From: Isoperla grammatica
Lineage: Eukaryota > Arthropoda > Insecta > Plecoptera > Perlodidae
Reading direction: 5' to 3'
Assembly (NCBI GenBank): GCA_945910005.1
Contig: OX246740.1
Span: forward strand, 612,917 to 676,916
DNA: 64,000 nucleotides
Position 1 is the first letter of the stretch. Every line of letters begins with the position of its first letter. The position numbers and the translations under genes are program-made. The notes beneath the pieces are model-generated. The model was given only the letters and a program-made list of their open reading frames with translations. It ran no database searches and was not told the origin of the DNA. Below are positions 18,101 to 62,423 of the stretch, in pieces.

Positions 18101-18170
18101 ACACCTAGCCTACGTACCTAAAGAAAGATGGAAAGAGAAAAATGCTACTAAACATTAGAATTTTACTTAC

Positions 18171-19430
18171 TTTTACAGTGACACTCCCATTCGACGACTT
18201 GATCAGATCGATGATCTCCTCCCGTGTTTTGTCATCCACCACTACACCATTCACTTCAAGTAATCTGTCTCCTGGAAGCAAGCCGGTCTCATTCCTGTGT
18301 TGCACTATTTGTCCAGGTTCCGCAAATATCACTGCTTTCATTTGTTGCTGTCCGCTTAGCAACCTTTCTACGACCATGGCTCTACGTAAACTAAATCCAA
18401 AATCACCACGTGGCTGCCTCTGTATCGTCAAGACCCGTGGCTTCGGTAAAGGAACCGGAGTGATGGGTGGTAAAGACAAATCTAAATCATCGAAACCCTC
18501 CGAAAACCGGTTTGAACGATTGTGAAGGTGAGAGAACCCTTGACTTTCGCCAACTGGGCTTAAACTAAAGGGAGGTGTAGCAAAACTACTGTTGGTAGTT
18601 GTAGTGTCTGTCAAACTATCAGCCGAAGGGCTCGTACTTTGTACTGTAAGTTTACCATCCTGCAATGGTGCAGTAAGATAATTGCTATGGTCCCCAGATC
18701 CACCAGAATGAAGATTTTCGTCACTGGTACGACTCGATTCTGTCGGGCTAGTGTGGTTATCCATTTTGAAAGAGCTTACACGAAGGCTATCACCCCCAGC
18801 AGACGTATCCCTGTTTGAATGATTTGTTTTGTGATGTTTGGAGTTGTTTACAACTTTAGTTACATTTTGATACGTTATAACCTCATTCTGCAAAGTATTT
18901 CGCACAAGAACAATAGAATCGGAATGGATTTCGACACCATTGGAATCGGTAATCGATGTACGCTGAGTCTTAAGTATGCCGCGTTTAGGGGGCCGAGGTG
19001 GAAGCGGCGGCAGAGAGCGTTGTTGGGGGTGACTTAGTGAAGTTAAGCTTGCTTCGCTACTATCGGACTGGTTAAAAGTATTGTCACCGGTGTGATGCCA
19101 AGAACTCCCTGACGGGGATGGGCTACCTGGCACCCGGGCTTGGTTATGACCAGGCAAACTAGAAGAGCCGCCAGCATAGTCGGGCCCTTGGTTCAAACTA
19201 GCAAAGAAGCTTGCCGAGTAATCGGCTGTGATGCCGCTTGGTAACTTTTCCTTTTCTTTTCGACGACCACGAATTTTTAACGACCGGCGAACTTCATCCA
19301 GTCTCAACAATTCCTCTGCAGTCATACTTCCACGGTCACGTTTCTGATTCTCCTTGCGTTCCTTTTTCTCCTTCTTCCTTTTTTCTTTTTCCTCCTTTTC
19401 GGCCCCACCCTTCTTCATAAAGTTGAACAT
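18171..19430 (-). CDS. MYO18A: Unconventional myosin-18 (MYO18A/Mhcl), first coding exon
   Basis: This exon encodes the first 420 residues of a class-18 myosin, an actin-associated scaffold-like myosin. The protein opens MFNFMKKGG and a Lys/Glu-rich block (residues 8-32), matching the KE-rich start of the long MYO18A isoform. A second basic patch lies at 51-63, a Ser-rich linker follows, then PPLPPRPP plus KRGILK (about 141-154). A PDZ domain fills about 332-420: the GDFGFSLRR ligand loop, VIFAEPG, LLPGDRLLEVNG, and a TREEIIDLIK helix. The motor domain would be encoded by later exons. The exon ends at GTAAAA|GTAAGT (donor at 18170-18169), phase 0; the open frame beyond that is intron. The ATG at 19430 is preceded by a likely splice acceptor. 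No further exon was found to the left within the window. Family assignment rests on the N-terminus plus PDZ wording, both of which fit MYO18A closely. Confidence 0.88.
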
Positions 19431-19465
19431 GGTTGATAATAATGTGTCTCATAAAGGCTTCAAAT
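19431..19465 (-). other. Likely 5' UTR part of the myosin-18 exon
   Basis: On the minus strand TTTGTTTTCAG precedes 19465, giving a credible acceptor 35 nt upstream of the ATG. The first coding exon would therefore begin with a short untranslated piece spliced from an upstream non-coding exon. That upstream exon was not located. Confidence 0.45.
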
Positions 19466-25369: not shown

Positions 25370-25375
25370 TTTATT
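25370..25375 (-). promoter_or_regulatory. Possible polyadenylation signal of FABP-A
   Basis: The minus strand reads AATAAA, the first such hexamer after the FABP-A stop codon. It lies about 1.15 kb downstream. If used, the whole 39/42-bp exon-derived array would lie in the 3' UTR. Confidence 0.35.
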
Positions 25376-25572
25376 TTATCGAAAATAAATCCATTTTAAA
25401 TAAAAGTATACAAACATAAAATGTTTTGCAAACAAAATGTAAGTTTAACTAAAATTAAAAACCTCATAATTTTGTAAAGTAAAAAAAAATAATTATATAA
25501 CGTGTAATAAAACTTAATATAAGTTCTTCCATGCGCGTAGTTCGGATGGTGGTAATGAAGGCTGGGGTTGGT

Positions 25573-26525
25573 TAACAGGCCTTGTAGATGTCCTTGATCT
25601 ACCAGGCTTTGTAGATGTGGGTGCAGATGTCCTTGATCTACCAGGCTTTGTAGATGTGGGTGCAGATGTCCTTGATCTACCAGGCTTTGTAGATGCGGGT
25701 GCAGATGTCCTTGATCTACCAGGCCTTGTAGATGCGGGTGCAGATGTCCTTGATCTACCAGGCCTTGTAGATGCGGGTGCAGATGTCCTTGATCTACCAG
25801 GTCTTGTAGATGCGGGTGCAGATGTCCTTGATCTACCAGGTCTTGTAGATGCGGGTGCAGATGTCCTTGATCTACCAGGCCTTGTAGATGCGGGTGCAGA
25901 TGTCCTTGATCTACCAGGCCTTGGAGATGCGGGTGCAGTCAATGTCCTTGATCTACCAGGCCTTGTAGATGCGGGTGCAGATGTCCTTGATCTACCAGGC
26001 CTTGGAGATGCGGGTGCAGTCAATGTCCTTGATCTACCAGGCCTTGTAGATGCGGGTGCAGATGTCCTTGATCTACCAGGCCTTGTAGATGTGTGTGCAG
26101 TCAATGTCCTTGATCTACCACCACTTGCAGATGTGTGTGCAGTTGATGTCCTTGATCTAACAGGCCTTGTAGATGTGTGTGCAGTCGGTGTCCTTGATCT
26201 ACCAGGCCTTGTAGATGCGGGTGCAGATGTCCTTGATCTACCAGGCCTTGGAGATGCGGGTGCAGTCAATGTCCTTGATCTACCAGGCCTTGTAGATGCG
26301 GGTGCAGATGTCCTTGATCTACCAGGCCTTGGAGATGCGGGTGCAGTCAATGTCCTTGATCTACCAGGCCTTGTAGATGCGGTTGCAGATGTCCTTGATC
26401 TACCAGGCCTTGTAGATGTGTGTGCAGTCAATGTCCTTGATCTACCACACCTTGCAGATGTGTGTGCAGTCGATGTCCTTGATCTAACAGGCCTTGTAGA
26501 TGTGTGTGCAGTCGATGTCCTTGAT
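25573..26525 (-). repeat. 39/42-bp minisatellite made of the FABP-A last exon
   Basis: About 24 units follow immediately after the FABP-A stop codon. In the gene's reading direction each unit reads ATCAAGGACATC, (GAC, GTC or nothing), TGCACCCGCATCTAC, AAGGCCTG(G/T)TAG. That is the last 13 or 14 codons of FABP-A with the stop codon. The two unit lengths differ by one codon. Units nearest the exon (TGTTAG, CACACATC) resemble it most. Units of types G and T form a duplicated block of about eight units. The 305-residue minus frame and 357-residue plus frame over it are by-products of a unit length divisible by three. Confidence 0.95.
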
Positions 26526-26576
26526 CTAACAGGCCTTGTAGATGCGGGTGCAGACGATGTCCTTGATAGTCATTAC
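26526..26576 (-). CDS. FABP: FABP-A exon 3 (last coding exon)
   Basis: It starts after the acceptor TTGTTTCAG, phase 0, and encodes [16 protein letters not shown] plus TAG. It is exactly 51 nt, as in FABP-B and FABP-C. Its last 42 nt are the founder of the minisatellite that begins at the very next base. Confidence 0.88.
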   Translation of the reverse strand, partial: VMTIKDIVCTRIYKAC

Positions 26577-29500
26577 CTGAAACAATCGCAACAAAACGTA
26601 AGAAGACTGGGTACATTCCGACCACTCACAACGAAAAGCATCACACTAACAAATCCATCCTATTTTGCTCAGATAATTAAAACTATTTGAAACAATTTAA
26701 GTTGATTCCAAAGATTTCAATTTGCTGTGTTATGATTGTATTTAAGATTGCGTTTTCACTTGTTGACTTACATCACATACATCACATACATCACATACAT
26801 ACATCACATACATACATCACATTCATCACATACATCAGATACATCACATACATCACATACATCACATACATACATCACATTCATCACATACATCACATAC
26901 ATCACATACATCACATACATCACATACATCACATACATCACATACATCACATACATCACATACATCACATACATCACATACATACATCACATTCATCACA
27001 TACATCACATACATCACATTCATCACATACATCACACACATCACATACATCACATACATACATCACATTCATCACATACATCACATACATCACATACATC
27101 ACATACATCACATACATCACATACATCACATACATCACATTCATCACATACATCACATACATCACATACATCGCATTGTCAGCACAGAGTTCAATTGTCC
27201 TATTCAAATGGCGCATGACCTCTAGGGAGTGAGTGTTAGGAATTAATTATGTTCAAGAACTTAACACTGTTCAGAAACTTGAGCAAGTCTAAACTAGGCC
27301 TAAACTAAAGTAAATATCAACACGCATAGTTCAGTTAATTTTCATTTAGTGGTTTCCACGGAGAAAACCATTTAAGGTGTTATTTTAGCCAGGTTCGAAT
27401 TAGTGTCTCCTTCACTTCAACCGAGAAAAAGGAAAAAGTAAAGTAAGTGTCGACGAATGGGAGGGGGGAGAGAGAGGGCGAGAGGGCAGTAGTAAACCTG
27501 CACATCTTGATACGTCAATGGAGACAAGACATGTAATGCGGGGGATGATCTGCAATTGTGGGGCAACTATTGCCGACTATAGAATGTTTTATTCTAGGGA
27601 AGATCAATAAGGGAGAACAAGAGTGGGTAGACCTATCTGGCAGGACAATGCCTATCGAGTGAAGGTCAAAGACAGACAAATACTCTTTTCTGGTTAGGGT
27701 CAAAAGGGAGTGGAATGCTCTCCGAAACGGAGTAATAGTGACTCCCACGTCACTAGAAGTTATGGGGGTATGTTTAAAAGTATGCTATATGTGTGTTTAA
27801 TGGCTTAGTTATATAAGTGTATACGGTATGTTACTATTTAGTTATATTGATCTTTTTATATGAAGTATACTGCAGCAGCCACCGATTGACAACGTATAAA
27901 TGTACAATATATAGGCGACTCAAGACTACCTTACATATGCTTTCGTCACAGGCGAGGTATTCGTAGCCAATCAGCGATCGGTATTTGCGCGCTTTTGTCT
28001 CGGGCGGTTCGCTGGTTGGCTATGAGTGCCTCGCCTGTGACGAAAGCATGTGACCATACAATATACAAATTGCTATCAACGAATTGATGCCAAATTAGAT
28101 TTCACTAATCACAAAACAACTTGTCATGCGGTCCCTGTAGTGACTGGCCAAAACACAGCGAATGCACTAAATTTATGTCGTAAGTTAATACTTTATGAAT
28201 GCACTATTCTTCACCAGCACTGTGGCAAAGTGTTTGAAATATCAATCTTTGATTGGTTATCGCTCACTCGTCGATGGTGTTCGAAGCCTACAGGGTTGGT
28301 TTAGTCACTTTAAATTAAAGTCCCCCACTGCAAATCAGTTTCATTACTGAGTGGGTAGACTCTAAATGTGAATTTATTAAGCGAGCGAAGCGAGCGTTTC
28401 CACTTGACTCTTATGGCACTTCATTCTGTTTTTTTTTTTTTTTGTTTGTTTTTTTTTTTTTTTTTTTTTTTGTTTTTATGTCCGTCGATAGCGGTCGAAC
28501 GGAAAGTCCGATCAACTTGAAATTTGGACCATCCACAAGCCTCGATGTGGATTGAAGGTGTATAGTTTTGAGGCAAAATCGTTCGAAAAGTTACAAAGTT
28601 ACACCATAGTTACTGCAAAATATTTTTCTGAAACAAAATGGCGGCAAAATGTGAGATAGCCAGATTTTTTTACAGATTTTTCCGGTCACGAATATGTTAA
28701 TGTAATGGCGATCTGATAAGTATTGGCAAAGTTACACAAAAGTTACTCGAAAATATATTTCTGAAACACAGTAACAGCAAAATGTGAGGTGGCTATCTTA
28801 TAGTAAATTTTCGTCCGGTCACGAATATACTAATGAAAACGCGATTTGATACATATAAGGGCATAAATTACATTTCTATTGCTGTCAATAACTGTTAGTA
28901 ACGGTGGCGGACCGCGGCGAAAACATGTCAGCGAAAATTCTTAGCAACGCACATTGCACTGCATCCAACAATGTCGGGAAGTATAATAGCTATGGAAATT
29001 AGAAAAAATTTTGCAATGCGCATTCTTAAATTGTTGTTAATTGTTGTTTGTATAAGCATTGAAATCTTTTCGCCTGCAAATCAGTTTCATTACTGAGTGG
29101 GTAGACTCTAAATGTGAATTTATTTATTTATTTTATTTATTTATTTAAGTGGGTAAGTGTATTGTAATTTACCAATTTTACCTAGAAAGAGACATTGTAA
29201 TGGTCGTAAGCAGGTTGAGATCCGAATTTCCTTACTAATATCGAGAAAACAGGCTCAAGTTTCCCATTAGGTCCTGACCAAGGACTGCTACCTAATCGTG
29301 ATTGTGTGCTTTGCTGATCTTTAAAAACCTCTAAAACTCACCAAAACGCAAATCGAATCTATGATCCAAAAAGCTTGCCGGGGGCAAACTCCCAACCCCC
29401 ATATGTTGTGACTACCCTGGAAATACATTACCAGCCAGTGATTTTGATTTTTCCCTAGAGAGAACACTGGGTTTCCCTGGGTTTAGGAAGGGCGGGATGG

Positions 29501-32500
29501 GAGAGAAGGGGTACCCCCCCCCCTTAGTTACCTGTGACCTGTGTAAACTCCCCTTGTATAATAAATGATATATTATTTACACACATAGGCTACGTACATT
29601 TTTTCAATACGATCGAACGTAATCACATACTGCACAATTGAATATTTAGAAGGCGAAAAAGTTACGCGGCGCTTTAGATACGCAAAGCCGGCGGTGATTT
29701 TAGAGCCTTCTCAATATTGGCTCTTCACTTAGGAATTCAACATTGCCCTCCCCTCCCCCCACCAAATTCCCGACTGTCTGTAGTTAGAACGTTTGTTTGG
29801 ACTGTGTGTACAGCCCCATACATATTTTCAAAAATGTTCCACTCCTCAATTTAATAATCCACTTTAATAAAAAAAAAAAACTAACCTTAACGAAACGAGG
29901 TGTTATTGTGTCTTCTACAGTTGACTGACCGTTTCTCCATGGCAATGTAAACATCACCAAGATTGCCGCCCTCCGCGGCCGCCTCAATATGTAAACTTTG
30001 AACAACCTTGAGAAAACAAAGTGTTGGCTCGGTGATAAAAGCCAAGTCAGTGCATTGTGGGAGATGGAAAGTCACAACACCAAGGTTGAAGACGAGACAA
30101 GGATAAAGATGACAGTCTTGTATTTTGGACTTTGTTTAACACGAGATAGCTGCGATGACACTCGAGTCAATGACTGACATGTATGTAGATAGTGTAGATT
30201 AGAGAGTGCGGGACCTCTTGAGAACCCAATTCACCGGTTGCTGTGCCAAGAGATTTAGGTGGTTGGATACTCCTAGCATACACAACGCGAAATTACCGTT
30301 CTTGGTCATATTCGACAGTGGTTAACGGTATGCACGCACTACTGCTGTGTAAAGTACACACAAACCGGATACGCCGGGGAGTCTACCTTACACATGCTTT
30401 CGTCACAGGCGAGGCACTCGTAGCCAACCAGCGAACCGCCCGAGACACACCCGCGCACATACCGATCGCTGATTGGCTACGAACCCGTCGCCTGTGACGA
30501 AAGCATGTGTAAGGTAGTCTTGGGCCAACTCTGGGGGGCGCGGGGCCCCAGTTTTGCCCCTCAGGTAATTTTTCTTTTTAGAGTGTTTTTTCACGAACCG
30601 TTTCAATGGCTTTGGAGAGGTGTCGGGGAGGGGTTCAGAACCCATGCATAAATATATTACTTTTGTGGTGGAAAAAAACAAATATTGTAACAGATACTTT
30701 AATAAACATTGGACGAGCAAATATAAAATTAATACAAAGTACAGCAGAACGTTCAACATAATTCCTCAATATGTAGGAAATGGATAAAAATTAGTACCGA
30801 TATGGTATACCGTCGGTATTTTTAGTAACGGTATGCATACCGGCTCATATCGCCCCACTTGAACCACTCGATATTAGAAGAAGTCCTCGATGTCCGTTCA
30901 CGCCGCAAGCAGAGGTCAATACACCTCCTCGGGCCCAAAGTATCTTACATTGTAGTATGCGTTACCTACATTACTATTGAGCGTTCACACGCATTATCAA
31001 CACAGTTAGGTGAGAACGCGCCTATCAGACAATAAAAGGAATTTATTCAGGGCCATTGTTTCCCCCCTCCCCGTGATTGGTTGATAACTTGTTGCTTGAC
31101 GTCTCTATTATTGCAATCAGGGGTGATTGATTGAGGGGCGAAGATGTACAATTAACAAAACATGCTTTATGCGGGATTTGAACCCACGTCCAAACGTACT
31201 GTCCTCTCCCAACAACCGCCTGAGCATTAAAGGCCCAAATGATAATGAAAGTAGGGTTGTCGCTTTTATTTATAATAATACATACATAATATAGTCATTC
31301 ATGTTGCAGCACTTGAGAAGCCATAGGGGCTGCGTTACCAGTCAATCTGTCATCCAGTACATATTATGAGTAAACCATGAACACATAGGTCATACTCAAT
31401 GGTCTAAAATTATTTTGTTCTTAATTTTTCAGCCGCCGGTACCGGAACAAGAACATACTTTATTCATTGTTTTGTTTATCGTTCTTTTAAGCTACCGGTA
31501 CGACGAGTGTGTCGACTAAAGTAATGATAAACAAAATACCGCCACTGAATTTAAACTTTAGACCAAAGTATGCCCTTGAACCGCAATAAAACTTGTTGTT
31601 CACCATCACGTATTTTTAGCACAACTTAGTTCGACGTGAGGTGGATTAAAGAAGCAAATATTGCCGGTACCGGCGGCTGAGAAAATAAGCACAACATAAT
31701 GTTGGTACTTTTAGGGGGGAAATGTTTCAATTTTTTAGAACACTGAAAACGGTGATATGATGAGCCTTATATAATTAAACGAAAGCAATTAGCTAGGCCT
31801 ACAAAATAATGTTCGTAAGTCGTCTGAAATATATTAATGCAAGGAAAACGTAACATTAGAGTAGCCATTGGATATGTAGTTTGTATTTAAAACTTAACGA
31901 TTTTGTTTAATTCGGTATCACGTCAGGTAAAGTCCGATTAATAAAAATCCACTGACGTATTCAAATAGTGCGATTTGATAATGGAAGCATGAATAGCTAG
32001 AAAATAGTGGTATAACATTTTGTATCATTCCATGATCAAAGCAAAGAATGATCTCGGTATTTTGATTATTCCCCCCCCCCCCCCCCCCCCCTAAGGTCGG
32101 CAGACGAGCTCATTGCCATGACGTGTAATGTACTTACTGCCTTAACTTCGCCGTCAGAGAACTACCTCACAATGGTGGTCGGCTCCCCCCCCCCCCCCCG
32201 CCCCTAAGGTCGGCAGACGAGCACATTGCCATGACGTGTAATGTACTTACTGCCTTAACTTCGCCGTCAGAGAACTACCTCACAATGGTGGTCGGCTCCC
32301 CCCCCCCCCCCCGCCCCTAAGGTCGGCAGACGAGCACATTGCCATGACGTGTAATGTACTTGCTGCCTTAACTTCGCCGTCAGAGAACTACCTCACAATG
32401 GTGGTCGGCTCCCCCCCCCCCCCCCCCGCCCCTAAGGTCGGCAGACGAGCACATTGCCATGACGTGTAATGTACTTGCTGCCTTAACTTCGCCGTCAGAG

Positions 32501-35405
32501 AACTACCTCACAATGGTGGTCGGCTCCCCCCCCCCCCCCGCCCCTAAGGTCGGCAGACGAGCACATTGCCATGACGTGTAATGTACTTACTGCCTTAACT
32601 TCGCCGTCAGAGAACTACCTCACAATGGTGGTCGGCTCCCCCCCCCCCCCCCGCCCCTAAGGTCGGCAGACGAGCACATTGCCATGACGTGTAATGTACT
32701 TACTGCCTTAACTTCGCCGTCAGAGAACTACCTCACAATGGTGGTCGGCTCCCCCCCCCCCCCCGCCCCTAAGGTCGGCAGACGAGCACATTGCCATGAC
32801 GTGTAATGTACTTACTGCCTTAACTTCGCCGTCAGAGAACTCCCTCACAATGGTGGTCGGCTTGTCCCCCAGCTGGTTCTCGACGAGTTTGTTCCCCTCT
32901 GACGTCACGATCGTCTTGACCTTGGCGCCATCTGCCCGGTCCTGCGTGAACTCCTCGCCTAGCTTGAAGGTCATGCTCGTGTTCTTGAAGGTCGAGCTGG
33001 ACTTGAGGGTGTACTCGTCGTCCTTGACCTCCAACTCCATGATGGGGCTGACTGCGGCACCCATCTTGCGGACCAGCATTCCCACGCCTGTTAAAGACAC
33101 ACACACATACGATGCTCTCAGTACTCAGTTATACTCGGTTATAGTTTAGTCTTACTATCTTTGATTCGGACACCCATACGCCACTATTTCATGGGTGCTA
33201 TTTTTAAATGTGGTAAATGACAATCAAATCCCTTGCGCGTCGCGGCGATGAAGCCAAGGCATTGGAACTGCCAAAAATATTATAGCGCTCAGCGTCAAGC
33301 GTTGCAACGCGTACATTTTCGCGACCATGGGAACGCGCTGTAAGATCATCCAGTCATAAACCGCTCTCATACATCAACTAGAGAATCAACTGATTTGCAG
33401 TAGTTCACTGTTGTTTAGGTTATCTGTGACAAGGTTCTATAGACGTTCCATGTGCAAAGTATCTTTTGGGTAAAATAAAAGTATTTGGAATTTATAACTT
33501 AAACTCGCATGTGAGAGGCTGCATAATATACAAATGTATTAAAGCAACCCCCCCCCCCCCCCCACCCTTTTCTCTCCGTTCCTATCCGATTTCACCCAAC
33601 ATTATCTAAAACTACCGTACTACATAACATAATCGTGACAGAGCATTATGCAAATATGAACTTATTTAATGCAAACACATTTCTAAATAATAAGGTTTTT
33701 GTATACAGTTTAGATAATTCATATTACGTACAGATAATGTAAATACTGCAGTCAGTAATTTCTGAAAGTAAAGCTTTACCCTGAAGGGGAATCGAACCCG
33801 AGCGCTATGCATTGTATGGATGGAACCAACTCGCAGGTCCAACAATAGACCAAGACTCAATTACCAAAATAGCCGTGTTGCCGTGTTTTGTTTCGGACAA
33901 ACATTGAATGTACACCAATCAAAGAAAGATACAACAATGCAGTTGCCTAGCAACACGTTGTTTGTCCGCCTGTGATGTCACAACCTCCTCAATTGAGTCT
34001 TGTGCTATACACCCACTCATTTGAGTAACTATCTTTACTGCATTCCAATTAGAATAAAAGTAATAAAATCTGTTGCACGATGTTGTGATTGTTTACAATG
34101 TCAAAACAATGGGTGGTACTGGTCTGCGCTATTATGGCACCGTGGATATACTGACTCATGCCAGCTCAGCAGTCGATGACGACGTTTGCTCTGTACGGCT
34201 CATGTTATGGCAACACAACTAATCGCAGTGATGAGTGCATCAGTGGTGACTACAGATGAATTGTGGGGGGGGGGGGGGGGAGGGCTTGGGAAGGGACCCC
34301 ACCCTAAATTCTATTATATCTTTAATGATTGTCAACAATGAATGAATGATACATAAAAATATTAAAGATAACATTTATGAAATTTTAGATATCATATTAC
34401 GTGAAGTCAGTAATCTTATTTGACTCTAGTTTATGGTGCAATAACATCCAGTAGAATTGGTCTGGTACATTTGTACTACTCGCAAAACGGTCAAAACCAG
34501 ATCAGCTCATTATTAAGAAACATTACTTGTGGCGCTGCCGGGTGGAGGGGAGGGGGGTCCATTAACTCCCCCTCCCCCCCCCCCCCCCCCCCCTCCCAAC
34601 AGTCTACATATTTTATGAACTAATTGTGCATCGTTGGCACTACCAAGTTTTATTTTAGCACCACTACGGTTTGGAAGCAATTCCCTTTTCAAATCGGAAG
34701 AGCCATGTTAAAATTGTATTTATTGGTAACCCCCCCAATTTGGAATTCGAGCTCTAAAGTCAAAACTACACTCATATTTATGAACTATCACTGTTTTTGC
34801 ACCATCAACAATTTTGCCAGACTATCTAAGAACAAAATGACGCAAACTTTGATGATAAAATCTGGCAATTAGAAACAAATGTTTTTATCATTATTCAATA
34901 CTTATGTAAGAAGATCATTCCTTACATCATTACGAGTTTTTCGGGATATTTGGGGCGCAAAACTGCACCGGACAGTAATTTATTTTTGCATTGTCATCTA
35001 TGACATGGGTAAATAGTAAATACCTAGAATTTGGAATAGTTCAATTTACAAACGCAGACCGATGCGTGTTTATTAACTATAAGCACCGTCACACCAAATA
35101 AATAACATCGGCTATTACGTTATGCGAAATTACAAAATGGCTAAAACAGCATTTTATTGTTCTTTTAATGCTATTCTAGCATTTCATTAAAATGGACAAC
35201 ATCGAAACTTTCGTCAATATTTCAAATGAAACCATGGCAAATTTCAGATTTCTTCCCGAGAAGCCTTTTAAAGCAACAATGAAGTTGAATGCCTGAAAGT
35301 AAGATTGTAAAGTAATGCGAGCTTACCCAATGCTGACATGTACTCATCGAACTTGTCGCTCTTTTCCAGCTTGTACTTGTTGCCGATGAACGAGGCGAGA
35401 GCCAT
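26526..35405 (-). CDS. FABP: Fatty-acid-binding protein A (three exons)
   Basis: A cytosolic lipid chaperone of the intracellular lipid-binding family, reconstructed as join of 35405-35327, 33087-32816 and 26576-26526 (79 + 272 + 51 nt, 133 residues; the family norm is about 130-135). Exon 1 gives [27 protein letters not shown], matching the FABP signature except Lys where Asn is usual. Exon 2 supplies the beta-barrel ([27 protein letters not shown]). Exon 3 gives [13 protein letters not shown]. The expected carboxylate ligands, the Arg of TIVREF and the Arg-x-Tyr of TRIY, are intact, so I infer long-chain fatty-acid binding. Introns are about 2.2 and 6.2 kb, in phases 1 and 0. The intron that usually splits the vertebrate second and third exons is absent. 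Downstream lies the exon-3-derived array, and inside intron 2 an exon-2-derived array. Pairing of exon 3 with this gene is by position and phase only. Confidence 0.85.
26764..27175. repeat. (ACATACATC)n 9-bp minisatellite
   Basis: About 45 copies of ACATACATC with interspersed ACATTCATC and ACATACATACATC variants. It lies in FABP-A intron 2. All the long His/Ile/Thr frames here are this repeat translated. Confidence 0.95.
27180..27920. other. FABP-A intron 2, no feature seen
   Basis: No exon or repeat is supported, apart from a purine-rich stretch at 27458-27490 (GGGAGGGGGGAGAGAGAGG). Confidence 0.4.
27921..28056. mobile_element. MITE-1, copy 1
   Basis: The element is nearly a palindrome: CTTTCGTCACAGGCGAGG near the left is inverted as CCTCGCCTGTGACGAAAG at the right. 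Outer ends read CAAGACTACCTTACA (left) and its degraded complement. Copies 2 (30381-30524) and 3 (59661-59814) have the same core in the opposite orientation, judged by the asymmetric GATCGGTATTTGCG centre. Confidence 0.85.
28290..28380. repeat. Dispersed repeat R4 fragment
   Basis: The text AGTCCCCCACTG...GTGGGTAGACTCTAAATG matches, in reverse complement, 8935-9030. Its last 51 bp (28330-28380) recur on the far side of R1 copy iii at 29074-29124. Confidence 0.65.
28380..29066 (+). mobile_element. R1 Helitron-like repeat, copy iii (3' truncated)
   Basis: It begins AAGCGAGCGAAGCGAGCG, contains a long T-run (28431-28471), then GGTCGAACGGAAAGTCCG, two related blocks each carrying TCTGAAACA and CCGGTCACGAATAT, and GGTGGCGGACCGCGG. 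It stops at TTTTCGCC without the CTAG end. It is flanked on both sides by the same 51-bp R4 segment. Confidence 0.75.
29130..30380. other. FABP-A intron 2, no gene seen
   Basis: No exon is supported. The minus frames at 29784-30075 overlap each other and lack motifs. A poly-C run lies at 29515-29523. Confidence 0.4.
30381..30524. mobile_element. MITE-1, copy 2
   Basis: It opens CTACCTTACACATGCTTTCG, closes CGAAAGCATGTGTAAGGTAG, and has GTCACAGGCGAGGC inner arms. This is the best preserved of the three copies. The long inverted ends predict an RNA hairpin when transcribed as part of FABP-A intron 2. Confidence 0.85.
31150..31235 (-). repeat. tRNA-like SINE remnant
   Basis: On the minus strand ATGCTCAGGCGGTTG and, about 45 nt later, GTGGGTTCAAATCCCGC resemble polymerase III A and B boxes. 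No full tRNA fold is visible. Confidence 0.45.
31430..31679. mobile_element. MITE with 16-bp perfect inverted ends
   Basis: CAGCCGCCGGTACCGG at 31430-31445 is perfectly inverted at 31664-31679. The 250-bp element lies in FABP-A intron 2. Internal segments (GATAAACAAAATACCG, CGACGTGAGGTGGATTAAAG) recur around 8760-8790 and 9085-9105, marking older relatives. Confidence 0.85.
32071..32815 (-). repeat. 113-bp array derived from FABP-A exon 2 end and donor
   Basis: Units start (CTAAGGTCGG on the plus strand) at 32091, 32204, 32317, 32432, 32544, 32657 and 32769; the last one runs into the real exon. In gene direction each unit has poly-G, about 47 nt of exon 2 end (CCACCATTGTGAGG, TTCTCTGACGGCGAAG), the intact donor GCA|GTAAGT, and about 50 nt of intron ending CCGACCTTAG. 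All six extra copies carry TAG where the true exon has GAG, so they cannot encode FABP. Length differences come from the poly-C run. Confidence 0.95.
32816..33087 (-). CDS. FABP: FABP-A exon 2
   Basis: Acceptor TTTAACAG at 33088 and donor GCA|GTAAGT at 32815-32814. It has 272 nt: two bases completing a Gly codon, then 90 codons from VGMLVRKMG to SDGEVKA. Positions 32836-33011 are nearly identical to FABP-B exon 2. Confidence 0.92.
33088..35326 (-). other. FABP-A intron 1
   Basis: 2.24 kb. It holds a poly-C run (33547-33564), a tRNA-like B box (GGGTTCGATTCCCC on the minus strand near 33788-33801), and a possible MITE at about 33850-34012 whose ends read CAAGACTCAATTA and CTCAATTGAGTCTTG. It also has a poly-G run (34264-34282) and a poly-C run (34563-34592). 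No other coding exon was seen. Confidence 0.6.
35327..35405 (-). CDS. FABP: FABP-A exon 1 (with start codon)
   Basis: ATG at 35405, donor CATTGG|GTAAGC at 35326-35325, 79 nt, phase 1. It encodes the N-terminal strand and helix-turn-helix lid that closes the lipid cavity. No TATA box is obvious in the 120 bp upstream. Confidence 0.9.
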
Positions 35406-35741: not shown

Positions 35742-36326
<585 letters not shown>

Positions 36327-38486: not shown

Positions 38487-38893
38487 TGTAGCAGTGCGAG
38501 TCTAGAGAGTTTGTTGTGATCAGCAGGACTTGTAAGTGCGGGTCTATATAGTCTGATGTGATCAGCAGGACTTGTAAGTGCGGGTCTATATAGTCTGATG
38601 TGATCAGCAGGACTTGTAAGTGCGGGTCTAGAGAGTCTGATGTGATTAGCAGGACTTGTAAGTGCGGGTCTATATAGTCTGATGTGATCAGCAGGACTTG
38701 TAAGTGCGGGTCTAGAGAGTCTGATGTGATCAGTAGGACTTGTAAGTGCGAGTCTAGAGAGTCTGATGTGATCAGCAGGACTTGTAAGTGCGGGTCTAGA
38801 GAGTCTGATGTGATCAGCAGGACTTGTAAGTGCGGGTCTAGAGTCTGATGTGATCAGCAGGACTTGTAAGTGCGGGTCTAGAGTCTGACGTGA
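38487..38893 (-). repeat. 42-bp minisatellite made of the FABP-B last exon
   Basis: About nine units plus a partial one lie directly downstream of the FABP-B stop codon. In gene direction each ends ACCCGCACTTACAAG, TCCTGCTGA, the last eight codons of FABP-B. The preceding part of the unit (CACATCAGACT plus a CTCTAGA or ATATAGA segment) is diverged from the exon. Unit length is 42 bp, or 40 bp in the two units next to the exon. The same length and register (unit ends at the stop codon) as the FABP-A array is striking. Confidence 0.93.
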
Positions 38894-38944
38894 TCAGCAG
38901 GACTTGTAAGTGCGAGTGCATACGATGTCATTGCATGTCAGGAT
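38894..38944 (-). CDS. FABP: FABP-B exon 3 (last coding exon)
   Basis: Acceptor CCTCTTTCTAG, phase 0, 51 nt, stop TGA. It encodes the last beta strand with Arg-Thr-Tyr. It borders the 42-bp array on its downstream side only. Confidence 0.88.
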   Translation of the reverse strand: MLTCNDIVCTRTYKSC

Positions 38945-42498: not shown

Positions 42499-49179
<6,681 letters not shown>

Positions 49180-54935: not shown

Positions 54936-56920
54936 ACAGATGCAGCTATAGAGCATTTTACATTGTATGTAAATCAAAACAAGTATCAAAATTCTAAACT
55001 AATAACCAAATAATCAGTTAGGCTAATTAACTAACCTACTATAATTAGGTAACTAATACTAGCTATCAATCTAAAAAGAGAAATAACTAATTCACACAGT
55101 GAACACATCACTGGCACTGATTATGTTAGGTAATCTATTACTATTACCAAAGATTACTATCTATTACTAATCTATTTTATTAATGTAAACACTTGCTATT
55201 AGGTACTCAATGGAGAGATGTTTCATTTGGTAGAAACTGGTAGAACTAAACTAACTATATGTTTCCCCGATTTCATATTTATACGTGGGTTTCTTCCTTA
55301 TTACTTTCTTTAAAAGTCATACATAATTGTTTTGAGCTCTGTTTTAAAATGCATTTTCCTATACAAACATTTTAAATTATTTGGGAGATTATTCCAAAGA
55401 ATAGGCAACACGCGTACGATTTTTTTTGTTTAACCAAACACTTAGTTTAATAGTATTAGATACAAAAAGTATATTAATGCAAGTCGCACGTAAAAAAGAA
55501 ATTTTTAAATAGCTTTAATGTGGTCGCATTTATTGAAGTTTAAACTGGGGATCTGAAACGCGTACAGGTGGCTGTGACGCAATGGTTATGTAAACGTGGC
55601 GTAACAGACCAATCGCTGAGGCGGTGAGCGTACAAAGTACAAAACCATGACGTCAAATCCACTCTACATGGCGGCGGCTCGTTTTTCGCGCCCTTTTATT
55701 TATCGTTACTAAACCAATTATTTTGAGGCATAGACTGATCCGTTTTTCAAAATTCAAAGACACAAAATTATTAAATGAGAGACGAGGTATTTAAAAATCG
55801 ATTAAAATTTTCATACGCGTGTTCCCTATTGTCATCCTATATTTCAGAGTTCTCTTTCCACTTCTCTCCTTGTTCACTCTAGGAACAAATAGGTCCTTAA
55901 CTCCTTATGGGATTGTGATATGAGAAGAATTTTATTTGTCAGAAGGTGCATTGCGGGATATCTTGAGATAGGTTTTGAATGGATCACATTGAAAACTTTT
56001 ACCACACTATATAGTCATATATTGCATACGGGAACTGCTTAATAATATTTTCTTTCGTTTTCGTTCGCCTGTCTTACACTGAACAGTGAACAGTGTAACA
56101 ATGTTCTGCACTGGCTACACTAGTGTAAGTTTTAATTACGAGAAATATTTACACTGACTTACACGGGTACAAAAGAACGATTCAGTACTGACACTGACTT
56201 ACTCTAGTGTTAGTGTAGGACAAGCGAACGAAGCTCAGAATTATATCCTGTAACCATAGAACTGTGGAACACCTATGGTTGGTGTTACGACCACAGCATC
56301 TACGCAAAAAGATCTAAGAATAGAAGGTAATGGAAAGCTGCCCCAACCGAATCCAAGCATTTACATAGGGTAGGCCTACTAATGATTGACTAATGATGAT
56401 TATTGACTGCGTGAAGGAACAGTTAAATGAAGATGAAGTAAGACTGGCCAAATCCTTATCAGTTTTCAAAGAGTAAAGTGCAAAGATACAAAAAACACAT
56501 TGTGTATTTTTCCAATCGCTGATAAACTGCGCCCTTGATACCCCATTTTGTTTGGCGGTGTGTTTATTGGCGATGTGAATGCTGTCGTATGATTCATACG
56601 GCGCGAGAGAACGATAACAGGTAATAAAGAGCTGTCGAATATGTTATCCACGTTCGGTACTTTTGAAGATATTATCATCATTTCAAGTGTGGCAACTTGG
56701 CGAACTACAGTGCCATAAATGAGTCTAATAAACCGTCCTTCATGTAAAAATGTCAACGTGAATCCAGAAAGGAGTGCACTTTATTTATTAAATTCTATTC
56801 AGTTAAAAAAACTTATTTACAATGGAGACGATAAATACAATGTACAAGAAACACAAGAATAAAAAGTAAGAACACCAAAACAATAAAACAATGAATATTA
56901 TAATTTTTTGATTATTCATG
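54936..56920. other. Non-coding stretch, no gene seen
   Basis: No exon is supported. An inverted-repeat-like region at 56040-56240 (TTCGCCTGTCTTACACTG against TGTAGGACAAGCGAACGAA, with ACACTGACTTAC repeats inside) suggests a MITE of about 200 bp. The 96-residue minus frame at 56466-56756 has no motif. Confidence 0.4.
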
Positions 56921-56923
56921 GTG

Positions 56924-58932
56924 ATTAACGACGTGCTCGACACTCAGCAGCTAGGTTATATGACGTCAGGGTGTTGAACAACGTGCTCGACACTCAGCAG
57001 CTAGGTAATATGACGTCAGGGTGTTGAACAACGTGCTCGACACTCAGCAGCCAGGTAATATGACGTCAGGGTGTTGAACAACGTGCTCGACACTCAGCAG
57101 CTAGGTAATATGACGTCAGGGTATTAACGACGTGGTCGACACTCAGCAGCTAGGTCATATGACGTCAGGGTGTTGAACAACGTGCTCGACACTCAGCAGC
57201 TAGGTAATATGACGTCAGGGTGTTGAACGACGTGCTCGACACTCAGCAGCTAGGTAATATGACGTCAGGGTGTTGAACGACGTGCTCGACACTCAGCAGC
57301 TAGGTAATATGACGTCAGGGTGTTGAACGACGTGCTCGACACTCGGCAGCTAGGTAATATGACGTCAGGGTGTTGAACGACGTGCTCGACACTCAGCAGC
57401 TAGGTAATATGACGTCAGGGTGTTGAACGACGTGCTCGACACTCAGCAGCTAGGTAATATGACGTAAGGGTGTTGAACGACGTGCTCGACACTCAGCAGC
57501 TAGGTAATATGACGTAAGGGTGTTGAACGACGTGCTCGACACTCAGCAGCTAGGTAATATGACGTAAGGGTGTTGAACGACGTGCTCGACACTCAGCAGC
57601 TAGGTAATATGACGTCAGGGTGTTGAACGACGTGCTCGACACTCAGCAGCTAGGTAATATGACGTCAGGGTGTTGAACGACGTGCTCGACACTCAGCAGC
57701 TAGGTAATATGACGTCAGGGTGTTGAACGACGTGCTCGACACTCAGCAGCTAGGTAATATGACGTCAGGGTGTTGAACGACGTGCTCGACACTCAGCAGC
57801 TAGGTAATATGACGTCAGGGTGTTGAACGACGTGCTCGACACTCAGCAGCTAGGTAATATGACGTCAGGGTGTTGAACGACGTGCTCGACACTCGGCAGC
57901 TAGGTAATATGACGTCAGGGTGTTGAACGACGTGCTCGACACTCAGCAGCTAGGCAATATGACGTCAGGGTGTTGAACGACGTGCTCGACACTCGGCAGC
58001 TAGGTAATATGACGTCAGGGTGTTGAACGACGTGCTCGACACTCAGCAGCTAGGTAATATGACGTCAGGGTGTTGAACGACGTGCTCGACACTCAGCAGC
58101 TAGGTAATATGACGTCAGGGTGTTAAACGACGTGCTCGACACTCAGCAGCTAGGTAATATGACGTCAGGGTGTTGAACGACGTGCTCGACACTCAGCAGC
58201 TAGGTAATATGACGTCAGGGTGTTGAACGACGTGCTCGACACTCAGCAGCTAGGTAATATGACGTCAGGGTGTTGAACGACGTGCTCGACACTCAGCAGC
58301 TAGGTAATATGACGTCAGGGTGTTGAACGACGTGCTCGACACTCGGCAGCTAGGTAATATGACGTCAGGGTGTTGAACGACGTGCTCGACACTCAGCAGC
58401 TAGGTAATATGACGTCAGGGTGTTGAACGACGTGCTCGACACTCGGCAGCTAGGTAATATGACGTCAGGGTGTTGAACGACGTGCTCGACACTCGGCAGC
58501 TAGGTAATATGACGTCAGGGTGTTGAACGACGTGCTCGACACTCAGCAGCTAGGTAATATGACGTCAGGGTGTTGAACGACGTGCTCGACACTCGGCAGC
58601 TAGGTCGTATGACGTCAGGGTGTTGAACGATGTGGTCGACACTCAGCAGCTAGGTAATATGACGTCAGGGTGTTGAACGACGTGCTCGACACTCGGCAGC
58701 TAGGTCGTATGACGTCAGGGTGTTGAACGATGTGGTCGACACTCGGCAGCTAGGTAATATGACGTCAGGGTGTTGAACGACGTGCTCGACACTCGGCAGC
58801 TAGGTAATATGACGTCAGGGTGTTGAACGACGTGCTCGACACTCAGCAGCTAGGTAATATGACGTCAGGGTGTTGAACGATGTGGTCGACACTCGGCAGC
58901 TAGGTTATATGACGTCAGGGTCTTGAACGATG
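56924..58932. repeat. 50-bp satellite, about 40 units, each with TGACGTCA
   Basis: The unit is GTTGAACGACGTGCTCGACA, CTCAGCAGCTAGGTAATA, TGACGTCAGGGT. The eight-base palindrome TGACGTCA equals the consensus full cAMP-response element (CRE) and is present in nearly every unit; three units read TGACGTAA. Units differ by AGCAG/GGCAG, AATAT/CGTAT and GTGCTCG/GTGGTCG. The first and last few units are most diverged. The array lies between FABP-C and the FABP-D last exon. Confidence 0.96.
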
Positions 58933-62369: not shown

Positions 62370-62423
62370 TCATTCAACGAGCTTGTAGATGCGCGTGCAG
62401 ACAAGGTCATCCACCATAACGAG
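62370..62423 (-). CDS. FABP: Fatty-acid-binding protein D, last exon only
   Basis: Acceptor ATGTGTTGCAG, phase 0, 54 nt, encoding LVMVDDLVCTRIYKLVE and TGA. The Arg-x-Tyr pair is present. It is one codon longer than the last exons of A-C and ends in Leu-Val-Glu, not Ala-Cys, so this is a more distant paralogue. Its first two exons must lie to the right of 64000, since every FABP exon 1 and 2 found here is already paired. No exon-derived array accompanies it. Confidence 0.8.
   Translation of the reverse strand, partial: LVMVDDLVCTRIYKLVE

Follow-up and report, generated by a model that had tools for sequence, protein, structure and literature searches.

A minisatellite probably born from the coding end of a fatty-acid-binding protein gene in the insect Isoperla grammatica

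The last coding exon of FABP-A, a fatty-acid-binding protein gene of Isoperla grammatica, is followed by a tandem array made of copies of its own final codons and stop. We interpret the array as a local minisatellite that was born from FABP-A itself through duplication of the exon end and that then pushed the old stop codon downstream, and we give this reading a probability of roughly 0.78. Two further arrays start at exon ends in the same gene cluster. All positions below refer to the window, the whole 64-kb stretch of DNA that was analysed.

FABP-A consists of three exons that join into an intact spliced frame of 402 nt, coding for 133 amino acids and a stop. The product matches the PF00061 profile (7.4e-17) over nearly its full length and carries the conserved C-R-Y-K positions near the C-terminus, which identifies it as a cytosolic fatty-acid-binding protein. 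Residues V125, C126, R128, Y130 and K131 are invariant in a 19-sequence alignment. Among the best 120 of 127 matches, insect FABPs are up to 67% identical to the FABP-A product, and the closest comes from Coptotermes formosanus. Two complete paralogs, FABP-B (41.4-38.9 kb; PF00061, 1.2e-18) and FABP-C (49.2-42.5 kb; 3.6e-16), lie upstream of FABP-A in the same orientation. A fourth FABP gene, FABP-D, has only its last exon inside the window, and its exon 2 falls outside. The exons used in the analysis are these:

35327 to 35405, minus strand: FABP-A exon 1
32816 to 33087, minus strand: FABP-A exon 2, with a GTAAGT donor behind the exon
26526 to 26576, minus strand: FABP-A exon 3, acceptor ...TTGTTTCAG; array unit 1 is formed by its final 42 nt (26567-26526)
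38894 to 38944, minus strand: FABP-B exon 3, ILTCNDIVCTRTYKSC, with stop TGA
42499 to 42549, minus strand: FABP-C exon 3, without expansion; control
62370 to 62423, minus strand: FABP-D last exon, without expansion; control

No arrays were found at the gene ends of FABP-C and FABP-D or in exon 2 of FABP-B, FABP-C and FABP-D. The exon 2 sequences of FABP-A and FABP-B (33087-32816 vs 40243-39962) differ at only 2 of 176 positions in one stretch, against 24 among the first 76 positions and 5 among the last 14; the near-identical stretch looks like a gene-conversion tract. Simple repeats also occur within and near the gene. A 9-nt repeat, TACATCACA, occurs in 47 copies at 26769-27176 in intron 2, close upstream of exon 3. 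Upstream of exon 1, at 35744-36324, the 4-nt unit AAAT is repeated about 145 times with 98% matches.

The array at the end of FABP-A was cut into units in the direction of the gene, which gave 25 unit starts: the exon end itself, 23 full copies and a partial copy.

25599 to 26525, minus strand: 23 full copies in tandem, gapless after the exon TAG at 26526
25572 to 25598, minus strand: distal partial unit of 27 nt, IKDI-YKAC-TAA, with a probable ancestral stop at its end
25370 to 25375, minus strand: candidate poly(A) signal AATAAA of FABP-A, beyond the array

These coordinates bear out the first-pass annotation, made from the sequence alone, which had described an array built from the last coding exon, stop included, that begins at the base after the stop codon and holds about 24 units. 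Tandem Repeats Finder reports a single array (25586-26554, period 39, 24.1 copies, score 1423) and scores periods of 81 and 327 at 1541 and 1654. Including the partial unit, the array spans 954 nt and contains 11 distinct copy types. Such tandem units of about 10-100 nt in related but varying copies make it a minisatellite. As had also been noted, the units come in two lengths one codon apart: 42 nt in the exon and 10 copies, 39 nt in the other 13. The difference is exactly codon 5: the exon has GTC there, the 42-nt copies have GAC or AAC, and the 39-nt copies lack it. Aligned with the exon end, the 42-nt units match at 33-39 of 42 positions and the 39-nt units at 36-38 of 39. The unit had been given as KDI-CTRIYKA followed by TAG. 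The stop holds, being kept in frame in 23 of 23 full copies; the rest needs small amendments, as the exon ends in YKAC-TAG, 21 of the 23 copies have TGG (Trp) for the exon's TGT (Cys) and TAA closes the partial copy. A duplicated block is also present: units 2-9 agree with units 10-17 in 331 of 336 alignment columns, gap columns included, which fits the 327-nt period.

The direction of copying can be read from two codons. Codon 5 is GTC in the FABP-A exon, in FABP-C and in FABP-D, and GTA in FABP-B; none of the 23 copies has GTC. At codon 13, where TGG predominates in the array, FABP-B and FABP-C have TGC. The exon thus holds the family state at both codons, and on this sequence comparison the copies derive from the exon, with the polarity running from exon to array. 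The distal partial unit reads TGT and TAA, and its neighbours read TGG and TAG. When the bases after the distal TAA were aligned with the FABP-C 3'UTR, anchored at the stop, 6/8, 8/12, 10/16, 11/20 and 14/30 positions matched (P 0.016, 0.011, 0.006, 0.013 and 0.028 against shuffles, in nested windows). An unanchored alignment of the same two regions gave no signal, 202 of 1000 shuffles scoring as well, so the evidence for a displaced stop is only moderate. The TAA at the far end is probably the ancestral stop, the array having grown inside the terminal exon, and the working TAG was probably born at the first duplication junction.

The annotation had treated the array as a one-off. It is not, since two further exon-end arrays stand in the same cluster:

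38502 to 38917, minus strand: FABP-B terminal array, 10 units of 40-42 nt, the exon end being the first, with a degenerate partial unit after them
32072 to 32861, minus strand: FABP-A exon 2 array, 113 nt x 7, seeded on the 3' end of exon 2 and including the GTAAGT donor

The FABP-B unit comprises TRTYKSC, the stop and 16-18 nt of 3'UTR. In one of the 10 units the stop is TAA instead of TGA, and in one the final Cys is replaced by Tyr. In the exon 2 array, GAG has become TAG in units 2-7, and the donor reads GTAAGT in 5 of 7 units and GCAAGT in 2. The three arrays have different unit borders, and we therefore count them as separate events. Shared ancestry of the FABP-A and FABP-B terminal arrays was considered and rejected. 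Their units span different segments, and outside TRxYKxC the 18-nt parts match at 6 of 18 positions (P 0.30); FABP-B's own codons at those 18 nt match those of FABP-A at 14. In all three arrays the exon end is unit 1 and the copies lie beside the exon, as in the phenomenon called exon stuttering, and the FABP-A frame is intact. Copies in the adjacent intron that include the splice site occur at FABP-A exon 2; this feature does not apply to arrays that start at a stop codon.

The anatomy of the arrays, the polarity, the differing unit borders and the block duplication are directly visible in the sequence, and from these arrangements we infer the duplication mechanism and the displaced stop. The last 42 coding bases of FABP-A would have been duplicated in tandem with a junction that yielded an in-frame TAG, so that the end residue of the protein would have stayed unchanged. 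Slippage or unequal exchange would then have expanded the array to 24 full units, one block duplication of 8 units included, and the original TAA and 3'UTR would have been displaced by about 950 bases. Exon stuttering of the same kind would have produced the arrays at the FABP-B end and at the 3' border of FABP-A exon 2. By eye, GGGGGA is shared by FABP-A exon 2 and the distal end of the exon 2 array, and ACTCGCACT by FABP-B exon 3 and the distal end of the FABP-B array, where it may be a partial unit. Such short shared words suit slippage or unequal exchange between short repeats, as set out in the available text of PMC6947457. No clear microhomology or flanking repeat is left at the junction of the FABP-A terminal array, where any trace is weak.

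DNA folding may have favoured the spread of particular copies. In the TGG form of the FABP-A unit a near-palindrome, GATCTACAAGGCCTGGTAGATC, is complete, and copies prone to hairpins may have spread in the FABP-A terminal array only. We rejected hairpins as a general cause of array birth because a DNA fold clearly beyond shuffles was found only for the dimer of the FABP-A 39-nt consensus (z -2.87). The seven other arrays in the window gave z values of -1.62 to +0.32, and the unexpanded ends of FABP-C and FABP-D gave -0.91 and +0.02. A scan for bacterial promoters and terminators has no bearing on an animal gene.

The strongest rival to a special role of exon ends is coincidence: in a genome rich in minisatellites, random seeding would have happened to take in three exon ends, and such arrays would be tolerated because they grow outward. 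We regard this as a real possibility, short of even odds. Counting arrays with a period of at least 30, at least 3 copies and a score of at least 150, we found 10 in the 64-kb window; 20 samples of 10 kb from the same contig contained 11, which cover 10.5% of bases there. The exon-edge pattern, moreover, was tested after it had been seen, and at a single locus. We also considered an exon origin for the remaining arrays and rejected it, as none of 11 frames entering the edges of seven other window arrays and three flanking arrays was convincing by eye. The longest minisatellite in the window (50 nt x 40, 56916-58930) is without an obvious coding origin, and in one contig sample (34500001-34510000) a 179-nt satellite fills 9517 bases of the 10 kb. 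Against coincidence stands a placement test in which each window array was collapsed to one seed and the exon edges were approximate, those of a neighbouring PDZ-domain frame being guessed. Ten random seeds struck the 3' edges of the 11 modelled exons at least 3 times with P 0.00017, and any of 22 exon edges at least 3 times with P 0.0009, or 0.02 after 40 invented extra edges were added.

The PDZ-domain frame is a 447-codon open frame on the minus strand at 18108-19448 (PF00595, 1.7e-06), whose N-terminus we take to resemble myosin-XVIII. A search with a myosin motor domain found no motor-domain exons near this frame, and for this reason any later exons were left out of the edge count. Base composition was also compared. 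GC is 0.41-0.60 in the window arrays, 0.46-0.59 in the exons and 0.38 in the window, and arrays in the 20 contig samples have 0.36-0.58. Arrays and exons in the window are both above the window value, so GC alone may guide seeding. A broader proposal is that exon 3' ends are preferred minisatellite seeds here, that exon stuttering is not confined to birds and that the process can move a gene's stop. We consider this broader proposal rather unlikely.

The FABP-A array is predicted to be part of the mRNA as 3'UTR, the position proposed in the annotation. On the gene strand, the only AATAAA or ATTAAA from the array to 24900 is the one at 25375, and none lies within the array. With its poly(A) signal only beyond the array, FABP-A should have a 3'UTR of about 1.15 kb, most of it array. 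The alternative C-terminal exon ends that had also been suggested find no footing. The array contains no TTTCAG and no run of at least 6 pyrimidines with AG within 3 nt, by a simple test, and the acceptor before unit 1 differs in this respect; the copies lie behind the first stop, and each full copy carries its own TAG. Between the exon and 11 distinct copies we counted 9 synonymous and 29 nonsynonymous codon differences, which are not independent counts. Random change would give 20% synonymous, and the observed differences are close to that. The copies thus appear to be without sign of protein constraint, and we take the array to be tolerated, presumably neutral 3'UTR. It would be tolerated because translation stops before it.

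A function of the repeated units as hairpins that regulate the FABP-A mRNA seems improbable to us. In its favour, the consensus dimer folds beyond shuffles as described above, and a 246-nt stretch of the FABP-A array folded as RNA gave z -2.70. The dimer of the seed gave only -0.31, the FABP-A copies are heterogeneous, and no fold beyond shuffles was found for the FABP-B array (z -0.08; seed dimer +0.84) or the exon 2 unit (-0.16). An assembly artefact is very improbable: assemblies are error-prone at tandem arrays, but this one is shorter than 1 kb within a 60.6-Mb contig, its copy types are diverse and its two sister arrays have other sequences. Translation of the array, whether as a long frame-shifted tail or in a plus-strand frame, is barely credible. 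Open frames such as those that cross it (351 codons on the gene strand, 390 on the plus strand) are to be expected of a repeat with few stops and a unit length divisible by three, the plus-strand one lacks a Met, and the annotated FABP-A frame stops at TAG.

Together, three arrays in two neighbouring genes, with unexpanded paralogs alongside as controls, provide a clear invertebrate case. Exon edges can turn into repetitive DNA in this genome, which hints at a broader path by which coding exons may become satellite DNA. Arrays of the stop-codon kind could give a gene a new stop and about 1 kb of new 3'UTR while its protein stays the same. If the broader proposal on exon 3' ends is correct, the old stop would have become part of a distant 3'UTR while a stop born at a repeat junction took over. 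Stops arising at such junctions, together with duplicated splice donors, would then keep supplying new gene ends and 3'UTRs.

We compared the FABP arrays with known repeat systems. Tandem repeats just past a coding region are a feature shared with 3'-flank VNTRs of animal genes, such as the human 3'APOB-VNTR. The units of such VNTRs, however, are not known to be copied from the final codons and stop of the gene that they follow. The arrays resemble classical minisatellites, following the Haber and Louis model summarised in PMC6947457, in their 39-113-nt units, heterogeneous copies and block duplications and, as read by eye, in the short words shared at unit borders in two arrays out of three. 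They depart from that model in that the seed is a gene's coding end with its stop and that the FABP-A terminal array has no clear flanking repeat.

Within the open-licence literature searched, exon-derived arrays were found described only in PMC12954441, the one paper in which the term exon stuttering was found, and no array of a terminal exon with its stop codon was found. According to the available text of PMC12954441, exon edges with their splice sites are repeated into introns on chicken dot chromosomes, and its authors report it from birds and, apart from gerbil genes (data not shown), from no other vertebrates. As far as that text goes, the likeness is close: a coding exon edge with its splice site is copied outward in local tandem, the exon stays intact, and units measure tens to hundreds of bases in both. 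The FABP-A exon 2 array is a direct fit. Further hallmarks of exon stuttering are length differences among individuals and enrichment in a class of GC-rich chromosomes or genes; our analysis covers a single assembly. The chicken screen, as described there, concerned introns, whereas two of our three arrays begin at a stop codon and run on into 3' flanking DNA; our host is an insect, and the region, unlike the dot chromosomes, is not GC-rich (0.38). We read the FABP arrays as the outcome of an exon-stuttering-like process in an invertebrate, extended to ends that carry a stop codon.
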